Assembly (NCBI GenBank): GCA_035235625.1
Contig: CP141140.1
Location: forward strand, 21,968,685 to 22,032,684
Reading direction: 5' to 3'
Source of the DNA: Saururus chinensis
Taxonomy: Eukaryota; Streptophyta; Magnoliopsida; Piperales; Saururaceae
Length of the DNA: 64,000 nt
Shown here one piece after another: positions 2,819 through 44,391 of this stretch. A model generated the notes under the pieces. That model was not told the DNA's origin and made no database searches. It saw nothing but the letters and a program-made list of their open reading frames with translations. Position 1 is the stretch's first letter. Each line of letters opens with the position of its first letter. The position numbers and the translations under genes were made by a program.

Positions 2819-4440
2819 AAAAAGAATCAATTCTCCCATGTGGAACAGCAACGAGCCCTAATAGAGACTGTAAGAGGCACAATCCCACATAGCATTGACG
2901 TTAGAAAGTCTCAAAGGCAAGAAGAAGGATTGGTGAATTTGTTTATGGGTAGGGCTGTGTTGGAGGAGACAATCACATATATGTGAAAATCAAGAAAATT
3001 GACTCAGTTTTCCTTTTGGTTTTGATAAATCAAGGGGACTAGACCAACTAATTAAAATAGAATGCAGGCTTCATAGAAGATTTTGCAAAAAAAAAATTGC
3101 TTGCTACTAACGAGACCATGCATCGCCACGTGCAATGCACCTGAATAGAGAGGTAGAGGTGGTAGGTGTCTCTCCCTCACCCTCCCCACGTGCTTCTATG
3201 TTATACTTCAAAATACAAAATCCTCTAGCATAAACCCTAGTTGTTTTGGTTAATCTAATTTTTTTTTGTTTACTTCAAAAATTAACAAAAAATTATAGCT
3301 TTTGAGAGGCAAGAACGAGAAGGGAAAGGGGAGGGTCTGGGGGTGGATCTAGCTCTCGGCTTCTTGTTGGAGTCAGATAGTGCTGGAGGAGGGGAATCTA
3401 TTTTTTTTCCAGGGATGAGAAACTATGGGGGGGCGGATGAGATTAAGGAGTCAACTAAAAAATACATACAATTCTTTACTTACAGGGGATATAGGAGCTT
3501 TTTTGGACCCCATTAACTACATTCTAGAATATATTCTTATTCATTCAAACCAACTTTTGAGACATATATTAGGTTTCTCTACATTTAATGGTTACTAAAT
3601 TAATAGATTAAAACTCGTGATAATTTACAGAAATATGTAAGATACCTCTAAATGTCTATATATAAAAAATTGGGCGTTGTAATTTAGTCATATCGAGGCG
3701 GATAGAGCTAGAGCTTTGACTCCATGCACTAACATATGACCGCGAGTCCTTTGATTAGTAAGAAAGTTGACGTTTGATTATTCGTTCTTTTTTTACTGCT
3801 TCGAATGCTAGGCATTGCCCAAGGATGATCACCATCATCCTGGAGAGATCAAGGGTTTGAAGACAAAGTCTTCCCTCGGTGACCTAAACTGGAAAGGATA
3901 GGCCTACCGATTAGTGAGAAAATTTGGTCGTATCCGGCTAGCTACTTAATAGCGTTCAATAACTACCACGATTATGCAGCAGTTATTCCACTCTAAAGAG
4001 TGTCTGAACTATATAAGTAAGTAAAATTTAAAGAAAAGTGGGACAATTTTTTTCAAATAGACACTCTTTGTAGGATTGAGGGAGTATATGGCAAATAGAA
4101 AGACATTTAAATAAACCGAATATAAAACAAAAGGGCATCAAACACCAAACCACGGTTCTAGAAAACTTGACATTTACAAACCACCCCTTAATAGAACAGT
4201 TGTGTGATCAGAACTAACTCAAATAAGATATTTTGCACGCACATGTATGTAATTAGGATATAGAGATTTGTACGCCCAACACGCCTGGCTGCTACCATTT
4301 CGCACGAGTTCACTTAACTCACACGTAAAATGGTAGTCGTTGGATTTCTTTTTAACGGTTCAGCCCAATGCCCTATATCGGCACTCTATGTATAATATAT
4401 ATGCTGAAACCACTTAAACAAGAAACTAAGCACACATGGG
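2819..4440. other. Intergenic DNA downstream of receptor kinase A
   Basis: No gene was recognised. There are homopolymer T and A tracts, a short GC-richer patch around 3300-3430 and one open frame at 2708-2986 that overlaps the LTR end and resembles nothing I know. Confidence 0.4.
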
Positions 4441-4543: not shown

Positions 4544-7500
4544 TTAAGTGCTACCATTTTGAACATGGTCTCCTAGAAAGGCTTCCCTCAGTCGCTGCAG
4601 TTCGTTCCTCACCATTCTCATGTCCATTCTATCTTTTGGGAGTTCAGAGGAGCATCTAATTCCAATTCCTATCACTGCAACCAAGCAATCTTGAATTTTG
4701 TCTAGTCTAGTTTCCCCTTCTTCTAGGAGTAGTTGTGGGTACACAATCTCCATCACTCGTCCAGGAAATGCCATCTTTGCGTACTTTGAGATGGTTAAGC
4801 CATCTTTGAACATATCATCGTGAGGCCTCTTCCCTGTGAATACCTCTAACAATAGGACCCCAAAGCTATACACATCACCCATGGTAGTCACTTCAGAGCC
4901 AGTTCCATACTCTGCCGCAAATGTAAAGAAACATAATTTAGTAAAGTTTTTTTTGGCACAAATTTAGTAGTGTTACTTCATGGCATGGCATACTACTGTG
5001 TCTAGAATCGTAATAGCGATTATAGCTACTCTCCAGTCATAGTACAAGACAAAAATCATTAAAGACATAATATTTTGCTTCTGTTCAAACATGTAAAAGG
5101 TGATACAGAGCAAAATTTTCTTCCATAGCTCTTCAGATTATGTGTGTTTGAGAGAGACAGAGAGATTACCTGGAGGAATGTAGCCAATTGTACCTCGTAG
5201 GTTGATAGCACTAGATAGGGAAGTGTCACCACTTTCTGTGAATAAAATTTTTGCAAGTCCGATGTCGCTAACATGGGCCACCATATCCTCATCAAGGAGA
5301 ATGTTGTTAGGTTTTAGATCACAGTGGACAATAGGAGTATGACATTCATTATGAAGATATTCTAATGCCTTAGCAACATCAATGGCAATGTTTAATCTGC
5401 CCATCAAATTTAAATATTGATTTCGATCACCTTCCTTGTGCAGCCAGCTCTCTAGAGTCCCATTCGGCATAAACTCATAAACTAGAGCTTTGAATTCTTT
5501 TCCTTCTGCGTCAGACCCTGAGCAGCAAGTTAAGATCTTGACAAGATTCCGGTGTCTAATATTTCTTAAAGCTTCACATTCTGCCATGAAACTCTTAAGA
5601 GACCCTTCTTTATCAAGTTTAGAACTTTGACAGCAATAACCATTTGATCATGACCAAGAACCCCTTTATATACCGATCCAAAACTTCCATCACCTATCAA
5701 ATTTGTTGAAGAGAAACCATCAGTTGCTTCACGGAGTTCAAAGTAAGAGATGCTCATTAACTTGGTCTCTGTGGAAGATGTCAGGGATGTCGTTTTTCTT
5801 GACTTTCTTCCCAAATAAATTGCAAATATGCCTGACACCATAATTAAAAAGAGACTCCCTGTAATGGCTAATGCTTTTACTTTTGCAGATGTGGCTCTTT
5901 TATGTCCATAAACCACATCTGCTGAACATGGTGGCAGATTTAATTCCCTTATACCGCCACAAAGTTTGTTGTTACCTTCCAAGGAAATTGAACTTCCATT
6001 CGTGAATATACCTTTTATTGGCACTTTCCCTTCTAAATTATTGTAAGATAAATTTAGATATTGCAGGTACACCAACCTAGCAAGGTAATCAGGAATGGTA
6101 CCAGACAATTTATTTCGAGAAAGATCAATTTCTTGAATTATCTTCAAAGCACTTAGTGATACAGGTATAACTCCCGTGAAAGAATTGCCTGTCATATTCA
6201 GAACTTCCAACGCCAAGCAGTTGCCAAGGGAGTTGGGAATGTTGCCAAACAGTTGGTTGTCAGCAATAAGCAGTCTATTTATGTTCACCAGTTTACCCAC
6301 TCTCACAGGCAGGGACCCACTTAACAAGTTATTAGACAAATCGAGTTCAAATAATGATGTGAGCTCAAATATGAATATGGGTATGACACCATTGAGGCGA
6401 TTTTCATAGAGAAGAAGGCGATTCAGATTTGCACAATTTACTAGACTTGGAGGTATTTGCCGTTGCAACCGATTGTCATTCAAAAATAGCACGCTCAATG
6501 AGGAGAGGTTCCCCAGCGAAGCTGGAATTTACCCTGACAATCCGTTGCTATATAAGTTAATTCCCTCCAACCTTTTTAACTTCCCAACACCTGCAGGGAC
6601 TGAACCGGTCAAGAAGTTGCTCTCGAGACCAAATCTTTGCAGGTTGACGAGGTTTTGAATCCCCGGACTTATGATACCATATATCCGATTCCCACCTAAT
6701 ATCAAGTCTTGAAGTTGGGAAGAAAGGTTTCCCACCGAACCCGGCAACAAGCCATGGAGGCGATTGTAGCTTGCTTCCAAACGTTGGAGTCCACTGCAGT
6801 TGGTTAAAGACGTGATAAACAGCAAATCATCTCCCTTTTCACTCCCCAGTGTATTGTTTCCAACTAAAAACATTGTCAAGTTTTGACACTGGCCTATATC
6901 AGTTGGTACAGAACCAGTAAAATAATTGTAACCTAAATCCAGTGTCCTAAGATGAGAAACATTAGAGAAAGAAACTGGAAGGGGCCCTGTAAACTGATTT
7001 CCTGAAGCATGAAGGCCCTCAAGCTTTGGAAATGCTGTCCCAATATGAAATAGTATCCGCCCTCTTAGCTGGTTGTCTACCACAGTCAACATTATGATGT
7101 TAGTGAGATTGTAGATGGAGAGAGGAATCGTACCAGATAACTTATTTTCGCCTACTTTAAGATGCTGCAAGAGAGAGAGTTGGCCTAGTTGATATGGGAT
7201 CCTCCCTTGCAAAATATTTCGCTCCAGATAGAGTTTGGTGAGAGAAGAAAGATTCCCCATTGAAGGCGGGATGCTTCCACTAAGGTTGTTCTGACTTAAA
7301 CCAAAAAAAGTGAGCTTTGGCAAAGAGCAAAGCTCAGAGGGGATCTTTCCAACCAACTTATTGTAAGAGAAGTCGAAGCCTGTGAGTTCCGAGCAGTGGG
7401 AAAGGTTAGTGGGAATCACTCCCTCCAATGAATTGTGACTCAAATCTAATATTTTGAGCCGAAAGAGAGAACCAATTTGGTGGGGCACTATTTCTCCATG

Positions 7501-7857
7501 CAAGCTGTTATTGCGAAGGCCGATGGTTCGAAGGAAGGTGAGGTTTGCCAAGTGAGGCGACAAGCGACCCACTAGGCCAAGACCCATCAGGATCAAGGCT
7601 GTGACTCTTTGTGGGTGTTTGCAGCCACAGGTGACTCCTCGCCATTGGCAGAAATGAAGAGAATCATTCCATGAACTCAAAACTTGGAAAGGATCGCCAG
7701 TTATTTCTTTCTTAAATTCGAGTAGAGCAAGACGATCCGTATGGTTTTTCATCACTGAGGCAGTTGCAGCTGATGCGGAGTGGAACATGCCATGAAACGT
7801 GGACAAGGCTGCAACGACGCAAAGACAACAGATGAGGCAATGACGCAGAGAATCCAT
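4544..7857 (-). pseudogene. LRR receptor-like kinase A (Xa21/EFR-type), disrupted
   Basis: The family perceives microbial peptides at the plasma membrane and signals through a cytoplasmic Ser/Thr kinase. From Met 7857 one reads a signal peptide, an LRRNT cap (NHTDRLALLEFKKEI, then CQWRGVTC), over 20 LRRs, a TM segment (about 5795-5875) and a kinase. Exon 1 is 7857-5170 and exon 2 is 4911-4544. The 258-bp intron has GT at 5169 and AG at 4912, and rejoins GYIPPEYG. Full length would be about 1018 codons. There are two breaks. An in-frame TAA lies at 6529-6531, where paralogs have Gln in LSGQIPASLGN. A one-base loss in a T run near 5617-5620 shifts the frame after AVKVLN, before the kinase C-helix. 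In addition the DFG motif reads DIG. Exon 2 is very close to that of gene C. A truncated LRR protein could still be made, but a working kinase is unlikely. Confidence 0.88.
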
Positions 7858-8133
7858 TGGGGATTGGTTTGGAGGTCAAGAGAGCTCGCAATTGTGAGTG
7901 CCGACTCTTGAGAACTTTGGACAATGCACTGAATTACTCAGTTGCAGGGAGGCTCCGACGCGAATAATGAGAGGCAAAGGAATAGAATAGTTGGCAGCAA
8001 AAACCTTGGCTTTATTCCTTTTTATAAGATGGTTAGTTGCGAATCTATACTATACTTAGCGATGGCAGCATGTATTAGCAAAAGTGTTTTGATTACTAAT
8101 GGTAACTTTACTATGTTAATTATTTCTGATTAA
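7858..8133 (-). promoter_or_regulatory. Upstream region of receptor kinase A
   Basis: This is the immediate 5' flank of the gene A start codon. No clear TATA box stands out. A TTGACG core (W-box-like) is seen further up, near 8465. Confidence 0.25.
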
Positions 8134-9339
8134 TTAAATAACTATCTTTAGTGGCCTTGCATCCAATTGAATGGCCACTCCTTGCAGCTAGCCTATGACT
8201 ACGTCGCCGGAGTCTTCACGCCTCGTCCCTGTCAGTTTAGGTTCGAGGGCTGGCCCGACGAGTTGGACGGGGGCCTATCAAGGTATGCCAATTAGGAGGC
8301 GGCACCTTTGGATACGGGCCCGATGCATGGTGAACAAAATAGACCGGGGCCACGGGGAAGCTTCGGTTCGGTCCCCTAGGGAGTGGAGTCTTGGAGTCTT
8401 TAATGCTGGGCCCAGTGGGTTGGCCCGCATCATTAGTTTAATATTTTCAGTTTAATGGTTTCCCCGTTGACGCGAAGACTGACCTACAGAGGACATGCAT
8501 GCATGTTTGAAATTCAACGGGAAATAAATTTCCACAGTGACTTTTGGAATGGTAGCAGTCCCAGTGGCTAGTTTAAAATTAAAATATTTTTTATTAGTAT
8601 TACTTTTTAAAAATAGTTGAGGCGAGTTTTGACTTATATGTGGCTGGGGGAGTCTAGGTTATGCAAGTTCTCAAATCTAAATCTAAATCTAAACGGCACA
8701 TATTACTTAGAGTTTAAATTTCCCTAAAATAACATAGGTCATTGAATTTAAATCCAACAGCTGTAGGGCCTAAGCTCACACAGCTACGTGTGAGCCAAGA
8801 CTCACAGATAATTTTTCCTTTACTTTTAGAAGAAACGAGACAACTTCTCTAGTAGACAGATCCATTCATAAGAAAGAAAAAAGAGTTCTTTAACATATTA
8901 TCTGCCGAAGAGCCAAATATTTCATATTCCTTGCTTCTCAACTTTAAATACCATATGACCTACTTTAGGATAAAAATGCCTTTAGGTTTAAATAAAACTA
9001 ATACCTATACAGATTCTTATAAATGCACAGTGGCACCGTTTCGGTGGAGAAGAAGGATTGGCGGAAAGGTGGAGTTTGCGGTCTAGAGATGGCCATAGGT
9101 GACTCACCGGAGACGGTAAAAAGAAGTTTTTTTCCATGATAGAAGCGGTTCTAGGTGAAAAAGTCTTTATTTTGACCGATTTGATAACCCTTTAACCACC
9201 ATAATTGAGAGGATTAGTATTTGTATCTATTACAACAGAGAGGTAGGGAATAATGACATGTATGTAGGTAGAAAGGTATGGTTGACAAACATTGTTCCAT
9301 CAGAGAGGTTCGGCAAGCTGCAAGTTCAAGTCAAATAAA
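8134..9339. other. Intergenic DNA with a GC-rich patch
   Basis: Bases 8180-8440 are much more GC-rich than the surroundings and hold a short open frame (8195-8455) with no recognisable motif. The GC patch may be part of an old LTR. The rest is AT-rich without recognised features. Confidence 0.35.
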
Positions 9340-9350
9340 GACTTATCATC

Positions 9351-12300
9351 AATGGTAATGTGACTTTAAAATACTTCATTTCATTTTCGCAATCATCCAC
9401 TTTGTATGAATTAGAAGATAAAGAAGATCTGCAATCAATATTTTCAATTCATAAGAAGGTAAATAAAGAAATGTTATCATTGTATGCGGAGATGAAAAAG
9501 CCTGACAAAGGTGACAAATCACCATCAGTAGAAAGGAACTAGATGCTCAATAGAGATAAATCACCGGTGGTATTGACTCATCGCAACTTGAAAAGCGGAT
9601 TGCAAATAGGAGCCAATGATACACAATTCACTTGTGAAATAGTTAGGTAACAATGAATTTTAGATTACACAACATTATACTTTTTTGTTACTTTATCGTG
9701 TACTCGAATCCACGACATTTATAATATCGTGTTCAATAAAAATACAATATTTAAAATATTACATAACTAATGATGCAATATACAAAAGTGATATCTCACA
9801 ATAACACGACTTCAGAGAATATCTTCTCATTAATAACACGATAAAATTTGTAAGCGTGTAACTGAATATACGATGTTGAGTTATATTACATATTGTAACA
9901 CATTAATATGCATTGTAGATTGGGAGAACTGGGAGATTTCAACACAACAAATCCATGTCACACATTGTACAACATTCCAATGCCTACAGAACCTATTACA
10001 GAAGTAATTCATAGTGAATTTGAAGAAATGCCGCCAACAATAGGTGTGATAAGGACTTTATTTGATAACTATGAACCCCCATACAGCCTTAGAAATTACG
10101 ATAATCAAGAATTTGAAGAAGTGTGGGGTGATGACTAATGAAATGATAATGATATAATTGACATGGAAAATATGTTTGGCCATGAAAAATTCGGACACAA
10201 CGAGGTACCCAATAATATTGACGTTGAGGTAAAGGTTGAGTGGAAGACAATCGATGATCTCAACCCATTGGAAACAAATATTGGTGAGGGCAAGGTAATG
10301 ACTAGTAATTTGCAAATAAAAGACTACCATAATATACTCCAATTGGGTACATTTCCTAAGCTTGGTACATTTCATAATTATAATAAAGGCAAATTTCACA
10401 TATCGGGTTCTGGATGAGAACAAGAATATATATGTCATAAAGTGATTCGGTCAGTCTTGCAAGTGGAACATAAGGACATTAAACATTAGAGATGTAGTGA
10501 TTATGATAAGGTTAGTGCCCGACCATGCATGTGGAAGGCAAATGAAATCAACTGACCACCCTTTAGCATCTCCCCTTTAGATTGCGAGAAAATATTATGA
10601 CCTCTTTAATGATTCAATAGAAATTACAATGAAAAGCATTGCAAGATATGTATCGAAGAACTAGGGTATAACTGTGAACTACAAGAAATGTTAGTGTGCA
10701 GGTAAGGTACACTTATGATATTTACACTTATCAACATGACGTATTATCGGCCACACAAGCCTTATAAAGTTGCATTTTTCTAAAACATGACTTGTTTACA
10801 TTTCGTGTTACCATGAACATGCTGCTCATAAAGTCCAGTTTTATGAAAATACGATTAGTATAGGTAAAACACTGTGTGATTTAATCAATAGGGACCTAGA
10901 TGAATCATATCACATACTTCTTGCATACAAAATTTAGATAGAAAGGATTAATCTAGGTAGCTTAGTAGTTTCAATTAGACCATGTGACATTCCTAGACCT
11001 ATATGGGGATACGATTATAAAAGAGTATTTTGGATGTTTGGGCTGGTTATAAGAACTTTTAGAACAACATTGAGGTCATTACTAACCATAGATGCTACTT
11101 TCTTAAACGGAAAGTATCTCGGTCAGCTATTGATAAAACTGCACTAGATAGGAACAATAATATGTTATGCGTCACGTTTGCAGTGGTCGAGAATGAGTGC
11201 AAGAAAACTTGGTTCATTTAATAGGATGTAGTGAATTTGGACACACGTAACTACACATGAGGAAAGTTTCATCATTTGGGGCTACTGTGTAAACATGCAA
11301 TTGCAACAATTTATCACATACACTTCTATATGTCTGAGTACTACTACAAATGGTACTCCACAAAAACAAATAAAATTACATATTGAGAGCCATTATACCC
11401 AATGACGGATAGCACCAGTGGGCACCGACTAGAGTTCTGCTTACATTCAACCTACCAATCCCCCTTAAGCATTGTAATGCGACACCCCGCTTTTTGATTA
11501 CGTCTAACCAAGGGGGTTAGAGGTAATTAGTAATTTTCTTTATAATAAATTATAGATAGTTTTAACCATTAAAACCGCTGTATTTGAGTAGAGCTCGAAG
11601 AAACAAGCATAACGAAATAAAGAATGGGCGAAATGGAGGTCGGGACTGGAAGTTATGATATTTAAGAAATGTGCAATATAGGTGGGACTTACTTAGAAAG
11701 AGCACGATTTATTACTTTAAGTGGGTTTGTATCGAAGGGCTCATCAATACGAGTCCAACGATACCTAGAACGCGCAAATCCGATTCCGGGGTAGGGAGAT
11801 ATGCGAGTTTGAAGATTTGATTTTTTATATATAAAATAATATATTATAAAAAATAGGTACGTGTGTGACGCGCGCGCGGCATGCGCGACCACGGAGTGCG
11901 TAACGCGCAGTCACCGCTCGCGTAACGTGTGGGTGACGCGCTGCGCATGCGGGGCGTGAAACAATTGGCGCCCACAGCGCACCGCGCGGTTCCGCGCGTG
12001 CCGCCACCCGAAACCCGTGGTGCCGCCATTTCTGGCGGCGCAGTGCCATGGTTTCAGCGGCTCGGGTCTATTTAAACCCCTTTTTCTTCCGAGTTTTTGG
12101 CAATTCTTCTCCTCCTCCGTTTTTGACAATTCGAAGTCCGATTAAGGCCATTCAAGACCCGTTTCGTACTAAATCAAGCGTGCTCTACGCATTGGAGTGG
12201 TCATTTCTTTGAGTTGGTGATCGTATGAGGAGGAAACGCCCTAAGACAAGGCGAGGTTCTGCCCATTATCTTCATGCACATACCAACTTCATTTTCTCTG

Positions 12301-13637
12301 CTTCTGGCCATCCTAACTTCGATTTAGTTGATTCAAGAGGCGTTCTTGACTACACTACGCAATGGAGGGTTCCATTTTCTAAGTTGTCAATCGTATGAGG
12401 AGGAAATGCCCCGAGACTAGGAGAGGCCCTGCTTGTCATCGTCGAACACCGGAGCAATACAGGGTTCTATCCATAGTTTCCGAGCCTCAACAAGAGAAAC
12501 AATCTAGAGTAGGGGAGGTTTTGTCCACCACTCACGGACACGGAAAATGAGAAGAGTCTCCGGTAAGGAGAACATTTGTACATAGCCTTTCAATGCAAGA
12601 CGAGGGACATATAAAGGCCAGAGGAAGTTCCATCTACTACCTCTGGATCTGAAGGGGAGGACGCCAGAAGGAACGAGCAACTCCGAACACTGCTACCTTA
12701 CGAGACATGATGGGAGTAAGCAGTTCTAATCTCCAGTTTTAATTATAGAATGACATGTGCTAGTTTTGATGTGTGTTATGCTATGATCCATATGCTTGCT
12801 ATGCTTATATACCATAATGTGTGCTTTTATGTCATGATGTATGCTTATATGTCATGATGTGTGCTTTATACCATAATGTACGCTTATATGCTATGACGTG
12901 TGTAGTCTCGCTCTAGGGTAGAGTGAGACGTGTAATTTGTGTTTTCAGTTTTGGCTTAGTGATAGAGCGAGACGTGTATGTGTGGTTATGATCCCACTCG
13001 GTGGTAGAGCGAGATGTATGTTTTTGGCTTATTAATTTCCGCTTGACTCCGATATATGACGAATTTTTGTAAATATCAGTATATATGTATTTTAACGTAT
13101 ATGATTTTGTGACAATTGTTGTATGTAGTAGCTGTTAGGTAGAACTACGTTCGGATCCAATCATGTTGGAATAATATCCAATACGTATGTAGGCAACCGG
13201 CGGCAAGGCAACGTTGGCCCAATCCAAATTAATTATGAATATATGTTTTATGTTATTTTTCATGCGACAAACTATGAAGCTTCGTTGTGTATGTCCATTA
13301 CAACCTAAGTCTACGTACGAGGAAGCTTTGAAGCTCCATAGTGCGTAGACGAACGTTGTACATCTCGCACACAAACGATGATTCCTGGCTCAAAGAAAAG
13401 AAAAATTTTATATTAGTGATTTTGTGGACTCGGCTCGGGTTGGGTTGTTATAGTGGCATCCAAGGAAAACCTAATATAGTCACAACCCAAGGTCAATGCC
13501 CTACACAAATGTGGAGCATGTAAGCAGTTGAGTCACAATCACAAATGTTGTGGCAGCACACAAGATGACCTTCCAAATGTGGCTGCTGGTCCAAATACAA
13601 GCCAAAGGAAGCCGAACAAAAAAGTAGGAAGATGACA
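9351..13637 (+). pseudogene. MULE (MuDR-like) transposase remnant, interrupted by an LTR
   Basis: Pieces of a MuDR-type transposase appear in the expected order. An N-terminal domain (VTLKYFISF...ELEDKEDLQSIF, 9357-9450) resembles the plant MULE N-terminus. Acidic linker segments lie at 9908-10138 and 10163-10417. The start of the DDE core, IDATFLNGKYLGQLL (11088-11132), carries the first catalytic Asp. A SWIM-like finger end (LLCKHAIATI, 11280-11310) is followed by YMSEYYYKWYST. After the LTR comes a CCHC knuckle, KCGACKQLSHNHKC (about 13508-13549), then a basic tail ending at a stop near 13637. The DDE core is much shorter than normal and several frame changes separate the pieces, so no transposase is made. 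The linker after SWIM (PLKHPRKT) reads continuously across the LTR insertion point if one target copy is removed. Confidence 0.72.
11473..13454 (+). mobile_element. Solo LTR, Ty3/Gypsy-like, inserted into the MULE transposase
   Basis: About 1.98 kb starts with TGTAATGCGACACCCC and ends near '..ttgttatag'. It has a CpG-dense block (11870-12060), a TATA-like 'ctatttaaacc' at about 12068 and then a pyrimidine-rich leader, as expected for U3/R. MULE transposase sequence lies on both sides, which identifies it as an insertion. A probable 5-bp target duplication is agcat/ggcat (one mismatch), though the exact right edge is uncertain by 1-2 bases. No internal retroelement domains are present, so it is a fossil solo LTR. 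The retained CpGs suggest moderate age. Confidence 0.6.
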
Positions 13638-13739
13638 TAAGGATGGGGAACATCGATCAAGGTTGCCTTATCTGCCCCCATTCTTTAGTTAAATAGAATA
13701 AATTCCATTATGATAATTTTGTAGTCACATTCTTAGAAA

Positions 13740-14285
13740 CTTGCTTTTTGATGAATGTAGTGTTATCATCTACGATAGTATATCAATATCATGTTATCGA
13801 TAACATGACCTAATTGGAGTTCGTGTTGTCGATAACATGATATGTTGATCAATGTTTATTGTTTATATTGTCTGATGTATACATATCGTGTAATTGGAAA
13901 CACGATCAAAGGGATTATGCGTCATCAATTACATAATAAAAAAATGACTTACAATGAATATAACAAATTTTTTTTGTAACTACTTATACATTGTAAGAGA
14001 GAAATGACATAGAGGTCCACTGTAGAAATAATTATTATATTACATATTAAAAAAACATTTTTACAAAATTATCTAAGAAATGACAAATGTTTAGTCGTGT
14101 AAATGAATACACGATGATCTAATCCATCGTTTATCTAAGAAACAAAAATGTTGTTTACCGTGTTATCGATAACTCGATTCAGAAACACGACCATTGTGCA
14201 AAGTCATATATCATGTTATTTACAACACAATACATGTATTTCGTGTTATCAATAACACGATCAAAACATTAACTAATTCATACCT
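13740..14285. repeat. Palindrome-rich repeat block, copy 1
   Basis: The block begins with 'tgttatcatctacgatagtatat' type sequence and TGTTATCGATAACA palindromes 32 bp apart (13793, 13825). It continues through an AT-rich spacer and ends with more palindromes (14155-14262). The same succession occurs at 15085-15640 plus 16300-16680, so the two blocks are an ancient direct duplication. Confidence 0.65.
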
Positions 14286-14660
14286 AACTTACCCCAATTT
14301 ATGGAGCAACACTTTATTAATTTTTGCCCAGGGCACCAATTTTTGATGCAGCACACCAGTATTCGACATAGCACTTACTTCACTTTTGGCACCCTCTTGG
14401 TAAAGTTAAAGCTTCAGATCCACGAGCAGATTACTAGTTGGCACCCACCTCTTGCCCCTCAAAGGAACCTGGCCGTAAGTGGTCACCTAACACTTTGGAA
14501 TCTTAGTTCCATATCTAAAAGAGGCAAAGAGACCGATGACTGACAATAAATATGACTGCCGAAATCTTAAAAGCGACTAAAGACTGACAATATCTGACCG
14601 GTGACAGGCAATTGCTAATTGATGAATGCATACTTCTTATCTTAGGGAAATATAAGAAGT
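14286..14660. other. Unassigned stretch between palindrome block and hairpin
   Basis: An 80-codon open frame (14301-14543) has no recognisable motif. No other structure was seen. Confidence 0.3.
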
Positions 14661-14970
14661 ATCGCACACCAATTGTCTCTAGGAGACGGTCTTGTTAGCC
14701 ACAAAAAAATGTAGCAGATTAGGACATTGAAATAACACCAGACTATAACTCGTCCACCTTCTAGGTGGATGAGAAGGATGGTGTCAAAGATTAATGACAA
14801 GTATTGACAAATAAATTTGCCAATTCACCCCATTAATCGTTTGCACCACTCTTCTCATTCACCTCGAAGACAAATGATTCATAGTCGGGTGTCATTTCAA
14901 TGTCCCAATGTCTAGAAGCATTTTTTGGTGGCTGATGAGATCATGCTCCTGGAGACAGATGGTGTGCGAT
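14661..14970. repeat. Long imperfect inverted repeat (hairpin), arms about 138 bp
   Basis: The arm 14661-14796 (from 'atcgcacacc' to 'gattaatg') pairs with 14831-14970 (from 'cattaatcg' to 'ggtgtgcgat') over its full length at roughly 75 percent by eye. The loop is about 34 bp. It may be a foldback element or a young MIRNA-like hairpin. No target duplication is visible. Confidence 0.7.
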
Positions 14971-15124
14971 GATTTACTTTGATATTAACTTTTTTGAACT
15001 TTTGTTGTTTAGACTATACACTCATCTACTACTGTTAATGATATTTCTATTTTTGAATTATACTACTAAACACGCTTTTTTTGTAGAATGTTGTGTTATC
15101 ACATACGATAGTATATGAATATCA

Positions 15125-15490
15125 TGTTACGACATAACTTGAGTTCGTTTTATAGATAACACGAGTTGTTGATCAATTACAAGAACTAATTGGAGTTCGT
15201 GTTATCGATAACACAAACTAACTAGAGTTCATGTTATCAATAACACATCCTAATTGTAGTTCGTGTTATCAATAACATGACCTAAATAAAGTTTGTGTTA
15301 TCAATAACATTAACTAATTGGAGTTCGCATTATCGATAACACGACATACCTGAAGTTTGTGTTTTCGATAACATGATATGTTGATTAATTATACGAACTA
15401 ACTAGAGTTTGTGTTATCAATATTACAACCTACCTCGAGTTCGTATTATCGATAACACGGCCTAACTAGATTTTGTGTTGTTGAAAACAC
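15125..15490. repeat. 32-bp tandem array of a TGTTATCGATAACA palindrome
   Basis: Palindrome cores start at 15149, 15201, 15233, 15265, 15297, 15329, 15361, 15413, 15445 and 15477, with a related core near 15125. Spacing is exactly 32 bp except for two 52-bp steps that contain an extra 'tgttgatcaatta'-like 20-mer. The consensus core is GTGTTATCGATAACAC followed by a 'gacctaattggagttc' linker. Substitutions are scattered, but length is almost perfectly kept. Confidence 0.85.
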
Positions 15491-15654
15491 GATTAAAGGG
15501 ATTATGCATTACCAATTACACGATAACAAAATTCATAATAATGAATATAAGTGAAATTTTTTGTGTACATTGTAAGAGAAAAATGGCATAGAGTTGCACT
15601 ATAGAAATAATTTACATATTACATATTGAAAAATATTACTTCAAAATTGGCATA

Positions 15655-17005
15655 TTACATCAAAAAAAGATATAACTCGTCTGTAGAAGCATCGAATTCC
15701 TGATCAATTTTCCCATGAAGAATTGTTGCACACATTTGTGGCTTGACCAACATAGTGATCTTTGATTGCATGAAATCTGGTTGAAGAACTTCTGCGGCTA
15801 GCTTCGTTACATAGTACATCAATAAGACCTTTCAGCCTTCATTCGTTTCTTCATAGAGACATTTTTGGATCTTCGTCGGTGACCACTTTGTCACACTCTT
15901 TATCCTTAGGATCTTCTTCATGGCATGGCAACATGAAGTTTAACCTTTTTGACCTTGGTAAAGTGGTGAATGGTCACCCTTTAGTGGATTATACTGCCTG
16001 GAACTCTTCTCCCTTAATTGACCAATAAGAAGATAGAAATGGTCAGTGACGTAGATCAGAATGAAAGCACTCTCGGTATTTACATTCAGCCACCTCATCA
16101 AGTTGTTGATGATTTTGGATCCATCTTCACATTGTCATGTTGTATCCCTACGTTGTAGTAGTGCTGGATGGCAAATTTTTCACAGAAGCAGTTCGGATAA
16201 ACTCCAGGATTTCTTAGATTTTGATCATCAAGTAGTTGACAAAAGATGTCTATACCCTAATATCATCAAAAAAATATTATTGTGTAAGTGATAACATGAC
16301 AGAAAATAAGTTGTGTAAATAACATCACGATATTCTAACCCATCGTGTGTATAAGACACACAAATTTTCTCTATCGTGTTATTGATAACACGAGTCAGAA
16401 CATAATTGTTGCGTGAATTACAAATCATGTTATTTAAAATACAATATGTGAAATTTTGTGTTATTGATAACACGATTCAGAAATAAGACCATCGCTTGAA
16501 TTCACCTATCATGTTATTTAAAACATGATATGAGAACTTTCGTGTTATTGATAACATGATTAAGAAACATGACCTTTGCATGATTTCACATATCATGTTA
16601 TTTAAAACACGATATGTGAACATTCATGTTATCGATAACACAAACAAAAACATTAACTTATTCTTACCTCATTTGTTATGCACTCTTGGCAAAGCAGAGA
16701 CACACAATTGGTAGGTAGAAGCATCTCCATAGACCATTGCTGGTGCAGATTGTCCATAAACTCCTTGATTGTCTCAAGATTTTCACCACGTAAGATCTCC
16801 ATGGCTCCATTGCGACCTCCTTTTCCTTTATCTTATTCTCATGCTTCTCAGCATGCTCTTCGATATCTATAACGCTTCTAATACTCTCTAGTAGTTCCTT
16901 ATCAATTTGATCAAGAGTATCTAATATGGTGGCCGAATTGGAGCGCTCGTCTTCTATGCTTTTGATGTTGCGGTGGGTTGAGGATATGCAAATAAATTGC
17001 CTCAA
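15655..17005 (-). pseudogene. Probable Ulp1-like (C48) peptidase remnant of the MULE
   Basis: Read on the minus strand, an acidic, Lys/Glu-rich segment (IDKELLESIRSVIDIEEHAE, within 16676-17005) is followed by NTESAFILIYVTDHFYLLIG (about 16020-16080), which resembles the strand carrying the catalytic His of Ulp1/SENP peptidases. Further on, LLMYYVTKLAAEVLQP (about 15775-15825) resembles the helix after the catalytic Cys (DCGxxxxYY). The Cys region itself is too decayed to read, and stops and frame changes separate the parts. The 16300-16640 palindromes lie between the first and second coding pieces. The assignment rests on pattern only; an unrelated captured host gene is the alternative. Confidence 0.4.
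16377..16640. repeat. 84-bp higher-order repeats built from two palindromes
   Basis: Units of 82-84 bp start at about 16378, 16460, 16544 and 16628. Each has a GTTATTGATAAC or GTTATCGATAAC core followed by a 'tatcatgttatttaaaacatgata' dyad. A decayed pair of the same units lies at 14155-14262. Confidence 0.75.
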
Positions 17006-17029
17006 ACATTCTCAAGTGCTACTCGAAAA

Positions 17030-18801
17030 CAAACATATGAAATAAATTGTCATGATCATAGGCTTCAAATACAAATCTATCTCAAGCATCCCTAAGTACA
17101 AGCCTCATAAACAGTTCATAGTCTAGTCTAACTACAAGCCCAAAAAGTATACACACCTTAATTTTCATCTCACCCAATGCATCAAATTGTGACAAAAATA
17201 ATAAAGACTCGTAGTGAGTCAAGGGTATAGCTGAGTAGATGGAAATCATTCCACCCACGGAAGCAAGTATCCATCTCTAGGTGCTCTCTTTCACAAACCT
17301 GCAAAAGCCACCCTAACATCGAGGCTAAAATGAGGTGAAATGAGTGTTTTCATACTCAATAGGAAAATACTTAGTAAGGGAGTTCCAAATAATGAACTAT
17401 GTAAGTCCATATATTGATATGTTCATGCAACTCAAACATGAAGCATGAAAACATACAAACACATCAGAGTCGCATAATATAATAATCATGCACAATCATA
17501 TACCATCTTACCATTCTTACACGTACTCTTACACTTACAGCCTTACTCATATCATTCTTACACTTATAGTCTTACTCAAAACATTCTTATAGTCTTACTT
17601 GTACCATCTTACTCAAATCCTTACTCTTACAATCTTGCTCAAAAACATACACTTATAGTCTTTCTCAGAAACTTACTTTTGTAGTCTTACTCGGAATCTT
17701 ACAAACTTACTCATAAACTTACTCATACAGTTGTATACATACTATTGACCACTAAAGCTCATTACAATTAATAAGTTATAGTGTAAAAATAGAAAGGACT
17801 GGCACTAGGGAATCACCTTAACCTCCTAGGAGTAACTAGATACCATGGACTTTTCTAAAGGCAATACACACCTATGCTAATGGGGCACAGGATCAAACAT
17901 GCAAGAGTAGATCCATGATACTACTTATCTGAGCGCACAAACACCCACACTCTAGAGGCCATACAATGCCAACTAAGGGTCATATAGTACCAACGAATGG
18001 TAGAAATCATATAATGTCACTCTTGGGCTGAAATCTTATAGTGTTACTCTTGGGTAGAAACATACAATGTTCTCAATAGAGCATCAAATATCTGAGCTTA
18101 ATATAGCACTAGGACAAAATAGAAAACATATGTTGCACTCAACATAGCATCAAATGTCTGGGCTTAAATACAAAATACAAACAACATACCGCATGATAAA
18201 CATCATGGTAATATATAAGAAATGCTCAGTCGACTCATTATTGCTAGCTCAAACACGAAACTTAATCTGTCAATACCTTCTGGTCTCAAACTCACAATGC
18301 TATCATATTAACTTTGCTTATAATTCAAGTTTGAATTAAGTAATTTACACGGTATAATTATGTCATAAAATGTTCTATCTAACATTCTTACATTGATTAA
18401 TTAGAAGCTGAACCCGTTATGAAACCTTAGTTTGTCAGGGTAACATACTTCACTTAACCAATCCATCTCATAACCATAACCCACCATACAACAAATCCTT
18501 ACATATTCTTACATGTTCCACAATCCACCTTATGGCTAAAATATCTTACTCATAAGTCATTAAACTAAGCTCCTTAGAGCCACCCCCAATTACCCTTTTA
18601 CTTATACCTTACTTATTGTTCTTACTTTCCACTTTATAAATATATGTTATGTTTATATAATTACATTGCACTCAGCACAAAAACCCTGAGTAAAATAGAA
18701 CCCCCAACGTCTGTTCCAAACTTATCCCAATCCTCTCCCGTCAAACTCTTATGTCCTCCGTCTTCCGTCATACAGTTATAAATCCATACCAAACCCTTGG
18801 T
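17030..18801 (-). repeat. Decayed Ty3/Gypsy-like LTR (family R1, copy 2), left part
   Basis: It matches 860-2009 block by block. The hAT element splits it at 18802, and the sequence resumes at 24547. Minus orientation is inferred from the LTR signals. This is an old fossil without coding domains. Confidence 0.5.
18794..18801. repeat. Left 8-bp target-site duplication of the hAT element
   Basis: CCCTTGGT directly precedes the terminal inverted repeat. The identical octamer follows the right end at 24539-24546. Confidence 0.9.
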
Positions 18802-19178: not shown

Positions 19179-20817
19179 GTAATGTGAATCTCTGTTACTT
19201 ATTTATTCAATTTAAATCTTTTGTGGTTACTTTTTGCGTAGAGCTTTTTTTTTGGATTTGATTTCAGTTTCTAAAAATACATTTTTCTTCTCTAGTTCTT
19301 ACTTGCGGAATTACAAACCTGTCTGTTCGTCTCTAATTCTTAATTGGCTTCTCTTGTTTTCTACTTTTTCTCGGTTAGTTTATACACAAGTGTATGACAA
19401 ATTATTTAGGTTTAATTTATGGGTTGTTAGGATTTCGTGTTCCTATGGCTTGATGAATCCAGTGGCATTCTCTTAGAGGATATTTGAAGTTGGGGGGCAA
19501 TGATTAGTTTTCGATTATGAAATGAAGTGGGTGTGGGTGTTGTTTGATTGTTCAATCGAACTTCAAAATGCTTTTGCGGCGAAGCTTGGAATCTAAGGAG
19601 CATTTGATTAGAATAGGAATGTTGATGTGCCGTTTTTTTCTCAAGCCCATTGCGGATTTGTATAGCCAGTGCTTAATTGAGTTTGATTCGTTGTTCTTAT
19701 GGTTTTCTGATTCTTTAAATGTTCCCTTTATTAGGAATAGGCTAGAAGATCACGAGTTTTAGCTTCGTATTTTATTTGGTTTATAACATTTTTATGTTTG
19801 AGTATACGTGATAGATAATCTTAGGCACTTTTACTTGGACACATGTCTCGAAAGCAATATTGTTTCTTTATGCCCCAATCATAAAATTTTATCCTGTGAC
19901 TTGTGAATCAAGTCTTTGGCTTATTAGAGTTGTCTGAATTTTGTGAGGCATCTCTCACACACTATGAGAGGCATTTTTAACAAGGTTTCATCTCCTCTGC
20001 TTGTTTTATGAATCTCAAACATAATTTAGTACATTATCTCTTTTTAATGTATATGTAAATTCACTAGCTTATGTCTTGTACAACGTCAAAAGAATTATGG
20101 TATGTTTATGCTAGTTATTGCAGAAAGAATTCAACATGGGCTTATATTTTCTGTTTGTGCCAATTATCATAATTATCGCAAATAGTTTGTCCACCTGAAT
20201 CTGCAGCTCTTCCCACACCTTAACAGGCTTGAATTGCAGAACAATTTTTATAGAAGAGACTGAATATGAGAATACATATAATTTTTCAATTTCTTTGATC
20301 CATTTGGAAGCTTCTAATTTTCATATTTTGCAAATGGCGACCCAGAAAATAAAAAAGTTAATACCAGTCATAATTGGGCTGGAAGAGATGTTACAGGAAT
20401 TGCTCAATATATGGCATATTATTACTCACAATCAATAAGTTTCAAGTAGGACTAATTAAAGGTTTATTGATTAATGATCACCACTTCCTCTAATTATCAT
20501 CCATACCCAGGTAGCTGTTTGGATTCACCCTACAATTATTAGTCAACAATTATGAATTAAGATATAAAAAAATATCTATACTGCATTATTGGCTTTGTAT
20601 TTTCTTATAACATGACTTACTTATATTGTTCTGATCTGTGTGAAATTTTTTTTAATAGCAGCTTCTTTCTTGTTCATTTTTTTCATCTATATTATTTAAT
20701 GGTAGTCTTTTATCTCTACTTAAATTGATTGCATATTGTTATTCCCTTACAAATGCTTAGTAAGGAAAACCATTTTCAATGATTCGTGACATGATGGTGT
20801 AATAATTAAATTATTTT

Positions 20818-23128
20818 TTGCTATTTGATGTGTTTTCTTACAGACTATGCCTGAGTCTATGGATGCTGAAAGTCATTACATGGAAATTAGGTGGGAGTGA
20901 AAATAAATACGAAGCCGATGAATTAAAAAGAGGGGCTACTACAAGTGAACTAAATGTTAAGAGGAGAAAGTTATTTTCAAAGGTTTGGAACCACTTTGAT
21001 AAGGCATATGAATTTGATAGAGAGTATGGTAAATGTCATCATTGTGGTATGTTGATATCGGCGTTGGGAAGGATAGGGACTACTGGGTTGTGGAGGCATC
21101 TTCAAAATAAATGTGATAATTATAAATTTCAAAAGGACAAGGATGTGGAACTCAAACAACAAAAAGTGGGTAGTAAGAACAAAGATGTGAGCCCACTAGT
21201 TGAAGGGTTTAAATTTAACCAAGAGAGAAGTAGGTGTGAATTGGCTAAGGCTATTATTGTTCATGAATACCCTTTTTCTATTGTTGAACATGGTAGATTT
21301 AGAAAATTCTTGAATAATGTGCAGCCCTTGTTTGACATTGTTGGACGGAAAACTATTGATTTAGATTGCATGAAAATCTACGAAAAAGGAGTGAGAAAAA
21401 TGCATGCTTTGTTGGATAATGTTGAAGGTAGAATTAGTTTTACAAGTGATATGTGGACATCAGTTCAAAATTACTTATTTATGTCTATCATGGCTCATTT
21501 CATTGACAAAGATTGGGTGTTATACAACCAAATTCTTAACTTTTGTAAGGTTGAATCTAGACACACTGGTGCTAACATTTGTAATGTAATTTTCAATAAG
21601 TTGAGTGATTGGAAGATTGATAGAAAAGTTTTTAGCATTGTGTTAGATAATGCAAGTGCTAACATTTCAGCTATTAAGGACCTAAAAGCCATATTTCAAG
21701 TGAATGGTGATCTTCTTGTGGGTGGTGAGTTTTTACATGTTAGATATTGTGCACATGTGTTGAACCTTATAGTTGAAGATGGAATATCAGAAGTGAAAGA
21801 TTCATTATACAAACTTCATGAAAGTGTTAAATTTGTGAAAGGTTCTCCACAAAGGGAAGCAACATTTAAGAGGCTTGCAAATCAACTTAAAGCACCAACT
21901 TTGTCTTTAATTCTAGATGTGCCAACAAGGTGGAATTCTACCTTTAAAATGGTTGATGTTGCATTGAAATATAAGGATGTTTTTGCTCTAATGTCAAAGT
22001 TTGATAAAGATTATGTTACTTTTCCAAATGATGAAGAATGGAGAAATATTGAAGTTGTGCAAGAATGTATTAGACCATTTTTGGATCTAACGGAGCAATT
22101 TTTAGCAACTAAGTATCCTACATCAAATTATTTTTTTAACACAGTTTGTCAGCTGAAATTGGAATTATTGAAGTAGTCTAAGAGTGAAAATATTTTGAAG
22201 TATTGTTTGACTTCTAAAATAATGGAGAAGTATGATAAGTATTGGAATCAAACTTGTATGATCTTATCTATTGCATCAATTTTAGATCCAAGGTACAAAA
22301 TGTTTCCAATGAGGTATTATTTTCCTAAAATATTTGGTGAAATGGTTGGAAAGGAGAAGATTGTTGAAGTAAAGGGCAAATTAGAAATTTTGTATGATGA
22401 GTATAAGCCAAGTGATATTTCTCATAGGAGAGCTTCTACCAATGATTTAAATAGTAAAGAAATGGATTCTAACATCAATTCTACTAGTGGTAAAAATATT
22501 TGGTTAGATCATCTCAACATGTTCATGGAAGAAAATTCATCTTCTCAAATAACAAAAACTGATTTGGAACTTTACTTCGAAGAAGGGGTTGTTAAAAGTG
22601 CATACATGGGAGATAATTTTGATATATTGTCTTGGTGGAAGGTAAATTCTATGAAGTATCAAATTTTGTCAAAAGTTGCTCGTGATGTGTTTGCTATTCC
22701 TGTTTCAACTGTTGCATCTAAGGCTGCTTTTAGTATGGGTGGTCGAGTAATTGACCAATATAGAAGTAGCTTGAAACCACAGACAGTAGAAGCATTAATT
22801 TGTGCTCAAAGTTGGCTTCAGAGTGAAGATGAAGGTAACTTATGTATATGTCTTTGATGTTTTTAAGCATATTTGTATACAACGTAATACTAAATATATT
22901 TTTCTTATAATAGTACAAGAAAATGTTGATTTGATGTCTTTCCCGACAATGCATAATGCTAAGGATAATGATATTGAGATTGATAATGGTAAGGTTTATG
23001 TATGTCAAATACACTATTATATTTGGGTTTGATCTTGGGTGCTTATTCTTATATATATTTTTTGTTGTATTTCAGAGTGTAAGACGACTACTACTCTTTT
23101 AGAAGATTCTTTTGGAGGTGAAATATAG
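20818..23128 (+). pseudogene. hAT transposase (BED finger, hATC), one in-frame stop
   Basis: This is a cut-and-paste transposase. A BED zinc finger (KVWNHFDKAY...CHHC...HLQNKC, 20980-21112) is followed by the RNase-H-like core (FTSDMWTS, then IVLDNASAN, CAHVLNLIV and DVPTRWNST) and the hATC dimerisation domain (22620-22820, with SKAAFSMGGRVIDQYRSSLK). The reading frame is open apart from TAG at 22174-22176, after ELLK. Two small downstream exons fit in phase: donor after 22834, exon 22914-22988, exon 23076-23128 ending in TAG. The true start is uncertain. An ATG just after the acceptor (MPESMDAESHYMEI) is in another frame and needs a one-base shift or a different splice to join the finger. 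It is either recently inactivated or only marginally so. Confidence 0.88.
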
Positions 23129-24546: not shown

Positions 24547-25390
24547 CACCTCTTACCATCTATTGCCCATCCATCTGCCCCACTCACAAACAGATATACA
24601 TTGCACAAGCATATAGCCATCATATATATGTATGTCCATCACACATACATAAAACATACCCATAATTCCATACATAGCTTACCAACATACCTGTTACCAT
24701 CATTAGCATACACATGGTCCACATACATAAAACATACTTTTAGCTCACATGGATGTCATATGCATTTTCAAATATACCATAATTTATCCTATTTTACTCT
24801 TACATCATGCAATTGAATCATCATCGATCATCCAAAATATTGAATCATATTACCCTAGCAAGCTTCTACACATTCAAAGCATACTATTATGAAATTACAT
24901 GTTCAAAGTCCTCCACATCATAATCCATGACGTTTGACGGCGAACACATGACAGTGGTGGTGGAGTTGGCAGCCAAAAACATCACCTAGTTGAGAGAGCT
25001 ATTGTCTCGAGGTTTAAGAAGTGCTAGAAGTATTCTTGGCCAAATGGGGTGACAGGATTCTATGCGGTAAAATCCGTGATCCAGGGCGGCACACTAGGGC
25101 GGCTGAAATGGCAAATGTAATCGGAAACCAAGGTGGACTAACTGAAGGTCGGCCGGTGACTGAGAAGTACTCAACCGGGCTCAAGACGTCGAAATCGGCC
25201 GCAAATAGCATCCAACAATGGCGATTTCGTATCAACTATGGCCCACCTAAGGGGCAGAGGGCATGTGTATGTGCTCGTGGACAATGAAGGGGTGGAGGAC
25301 TCTAATGGTCAAATCCAATCGGTGGCCAAGCCATCCAACGGTGAGGCCGTGCAAAAATGACATCTAAACCCTAAACCGCACGTGTAGCCA
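24547..25390 (-). repeat. Decayed LTR (family R1, copy 2), right part
   Basis: This continues the repeat interrupted by the hAT element. The first 350 bp are AT-rich with repeated 'catacataaaacatac'. The last 480 bp are GC-rich, which fits the U3/R part of a minus-strand LTR. No clear terminus was found. Confidence 0.4.
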
Positions 25391-29494: not shown

Positions 29495-30065
29495 ACGTTA
29501 TTGGATATGCAACAACATATCATGAACATCTTCTGCCCAGTTGTACCTCCCCACAATAGCCAGGTCATCGTGGGTGTTACACAGAGATGAGGAGATAGAT
29601 CTATTCCTCTGTGTGAATAATATGAGAGCCCCCATGTGCAAGATATATATCCAAGTGCGTTGAGTTTTCGTCGGAGACAACATGCCCGTTTTTAGCCACT
29701 TTCTACAAAATTTCTTCAATGAGATTCTTCTCTAGCAGCTTCCCCATGAAGAACCTTTTAAAGAATTGCCTATTGCCTTGGGCAGCTTTCCTGTCACCAC
29801 TATCCAACTTCAATGGGTTTCCATTCGCCCTCAATCACGTGATCAGTGCATCATCTTCCTCTATGAGGGGTATTATTTTCCCCTGGATGTTGAACACCTC
29901 TTGTGAGTAATCCCAACACTCACCAATTAGAACGTCCGGGAGCAGTCTAGAGATTATGATTTACTTACAATCGTATACTAGGTATGACCTAGTCTCCTCC
30001 AAAATTGCCTTGCATCTTGGCATCAATTCAACGAGGTCTTTTGATAGTCAAAGTCTAGCTGGGAA
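29495..30065 (-). pseudogene. Remnant of a plant mobile domain (PMD/DUF1985-like) protein
   Basis: On the minus strand, ECWDYSQEVFNIQGKIIPLI (about 29850-29910) matches the style of PMD/aminotransferase-like transposon proteins (WD...F...G...TLEDV). Further on are HMGALILFTQRNRSISSSLC (about 29580-29640) and AIVGRYNWAEDVHDMLLHIQ (29501-29560), like the 'vd.le.vg.YnWa.av' end of that domain. Frame changes separate these parts. This family is often carried by plant MULEs and other transposons. The call rests on pattern resemblance only. Confidence 0.4.
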
Positions 30066-31270
30066 GCTATTTGTTTCTAGCCCCAGTCTTGTCCCATAAA
30101 TTCTCTTTTTATTCTCTTTTGAGGCCTTCACTGATTTCACCATTTGACTGTATTTTGCAACCTTCATCTGTTTACCCCCCAACACAAGCTCTTCCTCTTC
30201 CCTCAACTCCCCCCCTCCCGAACCAATGTCAAAAACCATCCAGCTCCTTGTCGCTCCATCACCCCACAAGCTCTGTGCCGACCTTACCCTTTCCCTCCTA
30301 CATGCATAGATTCACCACAACCACCTCTACTTCATCGTTCTCCTCCCAATCCGATCCAGCGCTAGAAGCTAGAAGCAGCCCAACGCCTCCCTAACCACAA
30401 AAGTCCGGCCGACTGGAGCCATTTTGAATCTCCGCTTCGCACAAGGCGCCGCCTTGACTGCCTCTCCCTTATCCCTCTCCTCCTAATCTCCTCACTACAG
30501 AGATCTACCTCGACTGAGAGAACTCAATCTCCCGATCTCCTCGCTATGAAGCTCCACCCCAACCGTACCTCTTCCCTCAACCTGCCTCCCAATCCAATGC
30601 CAGACGGTCAAAGGTCTTCTAGGTCATCACCGGTCCTCCACCTCGAGTGCTTGAGGTCACCCAGTTTTGCTCCAACCATGCACCACAGACGCACAACCAG
30701 CGTAAGAAACTACTAATCTGAGACATTATCAAAATGATTCAGGCCAAGGTGGAAAAGCTACAAGAATGACATAAAGGAATAGCTTGGACAAAGGATGAAC
30801 ACAAGTATTTCATCATTTTTCAAGCACCTATTTTTATGACAAGAGCAGTCGTGTTGTTGATGTGGATTGGTTACTGTTAGTTGCATTAATATTTTAGTGA
30901 CAAGTGAATGACATACTTGTAATAATATATGTATTAATGTTCTTTTAAAAGTGTGCAATGCTCATTCAAATGGCATACATGAATATAACAGGTTCTCTCT
31001 TAATCTAGGTACTAATATTTTATAAAAACAATAGATTTACGTTTGACATTTGGCGAGGAATTTTAGTTTAACACTATAGGTATAAGATAGTAGCATTTTT
31101 TAGGTATCCTTCTCTGTAGAAAATTTGAATCTAGATCCTCTTTCTTGTTGTTTCCATTTTCTTATTTGTGATGACAAAGGTTTGTCTTTTGTTGGTTTTC
31201 TTTTCACTCTTCTTATAAATGTAAAGGATACTGATTAGGGAAGAGTTGAAAATGAAATTGTGCCTCAATG
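30066..31270. other. Intergenic DNA with a C-rich leader-like segment
   Basis: Bases 30150-30680 are unusually C-rich (poly-pyrimidine, 'cctccc') like a plant 5' UTR or an LTR leader. The overlapping Pro/Ser-rich frames have no recognisable domain. The rest is AT-rich. Confidence 0.3.
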
Positions 31271-35009: not shown

Positions 35010-35411
35010 GGCAGAAACCTTGAGTATTTAATTATACCAGGATATAATTGCAAGTGACAACTTATTTTACACCAAAGGTTGTGTCCACTGGCATCGGCCT
35101 ACTGACAGTCTGATGCCACACAAGATCAAAAAAGTTGAGAGACGAGAGCATAGGATCGAACATTCAACGTGACAATTGAGCCAAAAAATCAAGTTCTATA
35201 AGTTCGGCAAGGCAGAAACCTTGAGTGTTTAATTACCAGGATATAATTGCAAGTGACAACCTATTTTACACTCTTAAGGTTGTGTCCACTGTCATCAGCC
35301 TACTGAAAGTCTGATGCCACACAAGATAGAAAAAGTTGAGAGACATGATCATAGGAACATTCAACATGGCAAATGAGCCAAAAAAATCAAGTTCAATAAG
35401 TTTGGCCTCCA
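35010..35411 (-). repeat. Tandem duplication of the 3' end of receptor kinase B
   Basis: Two units of about 200 bp lie head to tail: 'ggcagaaacc' starts at 35010 and 35211, and both units continue through 'ttgcaagtgacaac', 'gatgccacacaagat' and 'caagttc-ataagtt-ggc'. The second unit contains the stop codon of gene B at 35393, so the 3' UTR and last codons were duplicated. Confidence 0.85.
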
Positions 35412-39179: not shown

Positions 39180-39335
39180 ATATTTTGTTGGGTCCAAGAG
39201 CAAATTTCCCTGCCTGGAGTGCTTGGGCAACGTCCTAAAATGCTTACTCCCTCGCAGTAAACCATGATCCTTATCTTTATACGGATGAAGAACAACTGCA
39301 CACCCGGAGCCACACTCACCCTCACTTAATCTCTG

Positions 39336-44230: not shown

Positions 44231-44312
44231 ATATTTTGAGTGGTTGAGGCTAAGAGCAAATTCCCCTGGAGTGCTTGGCAACGTACTAAAATGCTTACTC
44301 CCTTGAAGTAAA

Positions 44313-44319
44313 CTATATA
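44313..44319 (-). promoter_or_regulatory. TATA box of receptor kinase C
   Basis: TATATAG on the minus strand lies 83 bp before the start codon, giving a predicted 5' UTR of about 50 bp. Confidence 0.5.
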
Positions 44320-44391
44320 TGATCCTTATCTTTAAACAGATGAAGAACAACTGAACTCCTGGAGCCACACTAACCCCTACTTCAGTCTCTG

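Follow-up and report, generated by a model that had tools for sequence, protein, structure and literature searches.

A tandem array of palindromic cores in non-coding DNA of an Ulp1-carrying Mutator-like element of Saururus chinensis, a possible protein-binding platform

Introduction

Non-autonomous Mutator-like elements (MULEs) with terminal inverted repeats are a known class of transposon. The target site duplications of MULEs measure 8–11 bp according to an excerpt of PMC6446971. In the Arabidopsis VANDAL elements, the motifs targeted by VANC are 8–9 bp long, and the string 'palindrom' does not occur in the available portion of the text of Hosaka 2017 (PMC5735166). VANC genes that bear Ulp1 also exist, and Ulp1-carrying MULEs are described in part of a review (PMC13317346) as recognizing motifs in their own non-coding regions.

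We analyzed a 64,000-nucleotide stretch of Saururus chinensis DNA (the window) that carries a tandem array of 16-bp palindromic cores. Among the available portions of the literature, searches with four variants of the core letters returned nothing beyond a Lactobacillus match, and this motif was not found in the MULE and VANC papers. We compared the array, the element that holds it (W), and a family of short relatives (X) with the systems above.

Results

Core array. The initial annotation described at least ten dyad cores at 32-bp steps, two steps being 52 bp, which proved exact by the core positions and by TRF, which independently called a 32-bp period at 15167–15342. The reported array (15147–15490, plus strand, between two genes of W) consisted of ten cores with ≤3 mismatches to GTGTTATCGATAACAC, 16-base near-identical palindromes that start at 15147, 15199, 15231, 15263, 15295, 15327, 15359, 15411, 15443, and 15475; of the nine steps between them, seven are 32 bp, about three turns of the helix, and two are 52 bp. 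The same description was incomplete, in that it omitted a weak core at 15506–15521 (plus strand, 5 mismatches, PWM score 7.5) located 31 bp past the last reported core, a damaged core seen by eye near 15124, and two further clusters in the same element. The whole window contained 18 cores with ≤3 mismatches compared to 0.30 expected (100 shuffles, largest 3), and all 18 fell in 13791–16641.

The first additional cluster, A (13791–14258, plus strand), had a left part (13791–13838) with two cores 32 bp apart and a right part (14160–14258) in which cores at 14160 and 14243 flank a TTTA-type core at 14213. The second, R (16376–16641, plus strand), was in the intron of an Ulp1-like gene and contained four cores (≤3 mismatches) interleaved with three of the TTTA type. 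The alternation of the two core types, 51–53 and 31 bp apart, accounts for the 84-bp unit of this cluster. A weight-matrix scan located weaker cores at 13888, 13919, 14213, 15506, 16282, 16310, 16427, 16511, and 16595 in the same region, with weak scattered scores also elsewhere in the window.

Element W. The array sits, as judged by sequence comparison, in non-coding DNA of a decayed, nested MULE, because the window was collinear with a W copy on contig C2 and had an X-type end at 8883. Collinearity covered 8905–16942, except for an extra 2 kb (11473–13449) and smaller gaps, and resumed at 29522–30171. The C2 copy was ~10 kb long, spanning ~6109–16159 of the joined stretch. One of its strands encodes PB1, DBD_Tnp_Mut (E 5e-9), and MULE (E 1e-20) domains, and the opposite strand carries an Ulp1 (C48) exon. 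DBD_Tnp_Mut and MULE, which together indicate a mudrA-type transposase, were over the cut-off in this copy and undetectable in the decayed window copy. The Ulp1 exon (L029, 4259–4486, minus strand) passed the PF02902 cut-off narrowly and in one copy (E 3.5e-4, 20.9 bits vs 20.7), and its translation contained NEDCGVF; PF02902 had no match on the C4 fragment of W. Terminal repeats of the C2 copy were degenerate (score 19 vs at most 18 among 200 shuffles), and a candidate 9-bp duplication matched by eye at 8/9 positions. The MULE context named in the initial annotation was thus supported by the transposase and Ulp1 domains of the collinear copy and, in relatives, by terminal repeats and 9-bp duplications.

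At the left end of W in the window (8883–9010, plus strand), the terminal sequence belonged to the family of the X terminal inverted repeat. The X terminal consensus matched 8883–8933 at 81%, and two X right ends matched 8883–9010 or 8914–9010 at 74–75%. Searches within the window found neither the opposite end nor a target site duplication for this copy. The decayed transposase half (8905–11472, plus strand) was collinear with C2 6131–9525, which codes for PB1, DBD_Tnp_Mut, and MULE. About 0.77 kb of the C2 copy was missing from the window at 11212/11213, and none of the three domains appeared in the 83 ORFs scanned out of the 106 of ≥55 aa listed for 9–31 kb. The extra DNA at 11473–13449, where collinearity breaks at 11472/13450, was absent from this site in the C2, C4, and L013 copies and is probably a later insertion, outside the element proper; L012 had ~1.5 kb of other DNA at the same site. 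A reading of 13082–13450 as an LTR-retrotransposon was dropped, since the C2 copy places this stretch outside W. Between cluster A and the reported array was a foldback (14661–14970, plus strand) with arms ~75% complementary (DNA fold z -10), the surroundings of which (~14655–15005) occurred in W copies and also, MITE-like, at numerous sites that lack the other parts of W.

On the minus strand, the Ulp1-like (Peptidase_C48) gene comprised a decayed exon (15650–16256, with 15650 approximate) collinear with L029, an intron (16257–16667), and an upstream exon (16668–16942) that ends where homology with other W copies stops. The intron had a GAG/GTAA donor and a TTAG/G acceptor, and hence GT and AG ends, in 4/4 copies compared, and was ~411 bp long in the window vs ~297–330 bp in the other copies. 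A Pfam scan of the window's own broken Ulp1 frames gave no match, and a by-eye Ulp1 reading of these frames had two weak, unrelated PDB matches; the C2 copy is what supports this reading. The right part of W (29522–30171, minus strand) was displaced by nested DNA and matched C2 14680–15285 at 69%. The window copy of W is a decayed relic.

A spacer probe (14400–15060) had 40 scored places, about ten of which, including the window, matched over most of the probe, while most others matched in the foldback part only. Two of the places in the first group, selected through the probe rather than the core, were read, and each was a W copy with core clusters at matching positions. We infer that the two genes of W, which are on opposite strands, have cluster A and the reported array in the space that separates them. 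Core clusters of W were located between genes, in the conserved intron of the Ulp1-like gene, and towards the right end. None of the 18 cores of the C2 copy had its center within an ORF of ≥75 aa, although ORFs of this size, genuine or spurious, take up 39%; the clustering of these cores means fewer independent events than 18.

Surroundings. The remainder of the window contained other repeats and genes. A hAT transposase gene with zf-BED, hAT RNase-H-like, and dimerization domains occupied 20806–22854 as two open pieces in one frame with a stop between. Four related LRR receptor-kinase-like genes, identified by eye from translations, were at 4544–7857, 35393–39230, 40978–44368, and 51722–55028 (minus strand). 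A dispersed repeat adjoined W at 17003–18796 and 24547–25092 and had the opposite relative orientation beside W in L012. We also noted that 17177–17994 resembled 1033–1843 and that 48900–50500 held tandem GA-rich repeats recurring about every 390 bp.

Core loci and family X. The exact core occurred at 829 places genome-wide (516 Mb, 11 contigs), and the reversed control at 0. The matches listed, all on contig C1, formed 24 loci including the window, and we read 20 of the other 23: 16 were X, one was a partial X (L014), two were W (L012, L013), and the last was L025. With 19/20 of these exact-core loci being copies of X or W, a satellite unrelated to the MULE is rejected on this sample. Random spacing in other copies, a concern of the initial annotation, was not observed; steps of 31/32 bp were mostly kept. 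Among neighboring cores <120 bp apart the commonest steps were 31 bp (102) and 32 bp (70), then 87 (31) and 72 (21). A search for the two-core pattern matched 0 viral contigs and three bacterial contigs with one pair each.

Family X, as seen at the 16 loci, was a repeat of ~1.8–2.5 kb with terminal repeats and a middle formed by an array of palindromic cores at 31/32-bp steps, ~0.4–1.1 kb long. Copy L016 had a 61-bp terminal inverted repeat (80%). Target duplications in the 16 copies matched at 9/9 positions in L016, L024, and L019, at 8/9 in L017 and L027, at 7/9 in two, and at fewer in nine, whereas only 2/240 control pairs made from the flanks of different X copies matched at ≥8 of 9 bases. 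The 9-bp duplications of X and the candidate one of W on C2 fall within the MULE range. The few X ORFs scanned contained no Pfam domains. The X terminal-repeat consensus did not contain the core, by eye, and the first core was ~650 bp (L016) and ~640 bp (L011) inside the left end. The genome seems rich in MULEs generally, since first-look scans gave 2831 candidates for the transposase domain of MULEs and 957 for DUF1985, with the best 150 of each scored.

Turnover, constraint, and spacing. Cores at the site of the reported array (≤4 mismatches) numbered 10 in the window, 5 in the C2 copy (steps of 32, 52, 32, and 31 bp), and 4 in the C4 copy (32, 53, and 32 bp). A third copy, L012, had an 85-bp tandem array with core-like sites at ~3137–4008, in the interval of the window's 32-bp array. 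These differences support the tandem expansion proposed earlier, and we read them as independent local expansion. In cluster A, the non-CpG core columns of five W copies diverged less than the rest (0.097 vs 0.198; 0/271 shifts). The R region, compared across four W copies, showed no significant core constraint (0.194 vs 0.213; 117/366 shifts), a test that repeat misalignment and coding exons may blur. Between repeat units, cores differed less than linkers for both the 32-bp (p 0.04; rank test 0.097) and 84-bp (p 0.0002) units. Within X, conservation of core and linker was nearly equal (0.96 vs 0.90, for cores picked by similarity).

The consensus linkers of X and W were no more alike than shuffled sequences. 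The two arrays nevertheless aligned in places, over 49–129 bp at 71–84% and mostly in cluster R, which indicates some shared ancestry, and part of their likeness may be plain common descent. The earlier proposal that the spacing sets cores on the same DNA face applied to W, in which 19/24 steps >40 bp were within 1/8 turn of whole 10.5-bp turns, but not to X, in which 16/93 were, below the 23 expected; because many steps are inherited copies, these counts overstate independence.

CpG decay. Of the 40 substitutions in the 18 window cores, 27 were transitions (C>T or G>A) located at CpG sites, and CpG sites make up 108/324 of all sites (CpG transitions vs all non-CpG changes, Fisher p 3e-6). The X arrays (284 cores, 17 loci) had 416 CpG transitions plus 24 other CpG changes at 1704 CpG sites and 190 changes at 3408 non-CpG sites; in all of these counts the cores were chosen by similarity to the consensus and the units share descent, so the events are not independent. 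CpG observed/expected was 1.3–1.6 in array regions vs 0.59 for the window. This sequence pattern indicates that the CpG decay of cores is a footprint of past cytosine methylation, and such decay would suit any silenced transposon. The palindrome halves showed no coupled changes in window cores, with 2 compensatory changes seen vs 3.4 expected.

Discussion

The array is real, is located in a non-coding part of a MULE, and recurs in short relatives, and it therefore looks like a binding platform, perhaps for escape from silencing. A cis-acting binding array of some kind seems somewhat probable from these sequence features, and protein binding to the palindromes is plausible. Since layout, turnover, and host element resemble the VANDAL/VANC system and the Ulp1-bearing VANC genes, as far as the available parts of those sources describe them, we favor a protein-binding array that benefits the element, most likely an anti-silencing one. 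In this tentative reading, to which we give slightly less than an even chance, the repeated sites, carried in non-coding DNA of the Ulp1-carrying MULE W, are most likely recognized by a DNA-binding protein that acts as a dimer, and have a putative anti-silencing role. A protein of the element family, or an exploited host protein, would bind the palindromes cooperatively and would counteract silencing of the whole element, as VANC does at Arabidopsis VANDAL motif arrays. X, which keeps ends and array, could respond in trans. That the action is specifically VANC-like anti-silencing we regard as possible and somewhat doubtful. The strongest argument for function is that X and W share core and spacing while their consensus linkers are unrelated. 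This argument is tempered by the discovery of the X loci through the core and by the alignment of the X and W arrays in places, and the latter slightly lowered our estimate for a binding array and for anti-silencing.

Passive tandem repeats offer an alternative account, which we consider somewhat unlikely, in which slippage and unequal exchange multiplied a short palindrome in tolerant non-coding DNA, with no function and with X and W alike by descent. The variation of copy number and unit length between copies, the nearly equal conservation of core and linker in X, the absence of significant core constraint in the R region and of coupled changes in the palindrome halves, and the stretches over which X and W arrays align are all what this process would leave behind. 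It fits less well with the same core at about equal spacing between unrelated consensus linkers in X and W, with core constraint in cluster A and between repeat units, and with the helical phase kept in W spacings.

Two other roles would make the cores functional without any escape from silencing. The cores could be sites for a transposase or host factor that aids transposition or transcription, comparable to the internal or subterminal repeats of DNA transposons and with no silencing role; X copies do keep arrays together with terminal repeats, and a palindrome at regular spacing suits a dimeric binder. We consider this quite unlikely given that the X terminal-repeat consensus lacks the core, that the first core in L016 and L011 is far inside the left end, and that W cores are confined to one half of the element and include an intron. 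The palindromes could instead act as RNA, with array transcripts forming hairpins that feed small RNAs, so that the array triggers silencing. RNA of the array folded better than shuffles (z -6.7), the CpG decay shows past methylation, and tandem repeats can give rise to siRNAs and be targeted by RdDM (PMC10398659, in the portion available). However, the palindrome halves lack coupled changes and it is hard to explain why an element would keep and expand a trigger of its own silencing, making this role very unlikely.

The fullest version of the favored anti-silencing reading is a system in which a dimer binds cooperatively and sequence-specifically, along one face of the DNA, to a CpG-bearing palindrome; the system is used by an Ulp1-carrying MULE and is exploited by the short non-autonomous X. 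We consider this complete scheme unlikely as a whole. If it is true, X, as little more than ends and a target array, would be a parasite of another element's escape from silencing. Should the arrays be anti-silencing targets, methylation escape could be tested outside Arabidopsis on a well-defined palindrome that has hundreds of natural copies, with X serving as a short family akin to a reporter. If they are not, they would be a clean case of functionless tandem palindromes spreading inside transposons.

Among known systems, W resembles the Arabidopsis VANDAL MULEs with VANC targets as these are described in the available sections of two papers (PMC5735166; Sasaki 2023, PMC10398659). In both, a short motif is tandemly repeated in intron, intergenic, and terminal non-coding DNA, and the tandem arrays in the non-coding DNA of W vary between copies. 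Both also have repeats gained or lost between copies, degenerate terminal repeats (in W, those on C2), and methylated elements. They differ in that the motif here is a 16-bp CpG-bearing palindrome at 31–32 bp, compared to the 8–9-bp YAGTATTAY, AGTTGTCC, and AGTTGTAC of VANDAL elements in those sections, in that DUF1985 was undetected in W, and in that W has short X relatives with clear terminal repeats. DUF1985, the VANC domain, was not found in 72 Ulp1-strand fragments from four decayed W copies, nor by eye at W loci in the best 150 of 957 genome candidates; the best 150 of the 2831 MULE-domain candidates likewise miss W's own MULE domain. Because DUF1985 was not found, in copies that are decayed and among those best 150 candidates, we do not claim VANDAL membership for W. 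The Kaonashi/KIU elements, in the part of the review that describes them (PMC13317346), are similar to W in joining a MULE transposase gene with an Ulp1 (C48) gene, and differ in that no VANC-type domain was seen beside Ulp1 in W. Finally, X is like the non-autonomous MULEs in its ~1.8–2.5 kb length, its terminal repeat (61 bp in the copy measured), and its 9-bp duplications, and differs from them in having a middle filled by an array of palindromic cores.
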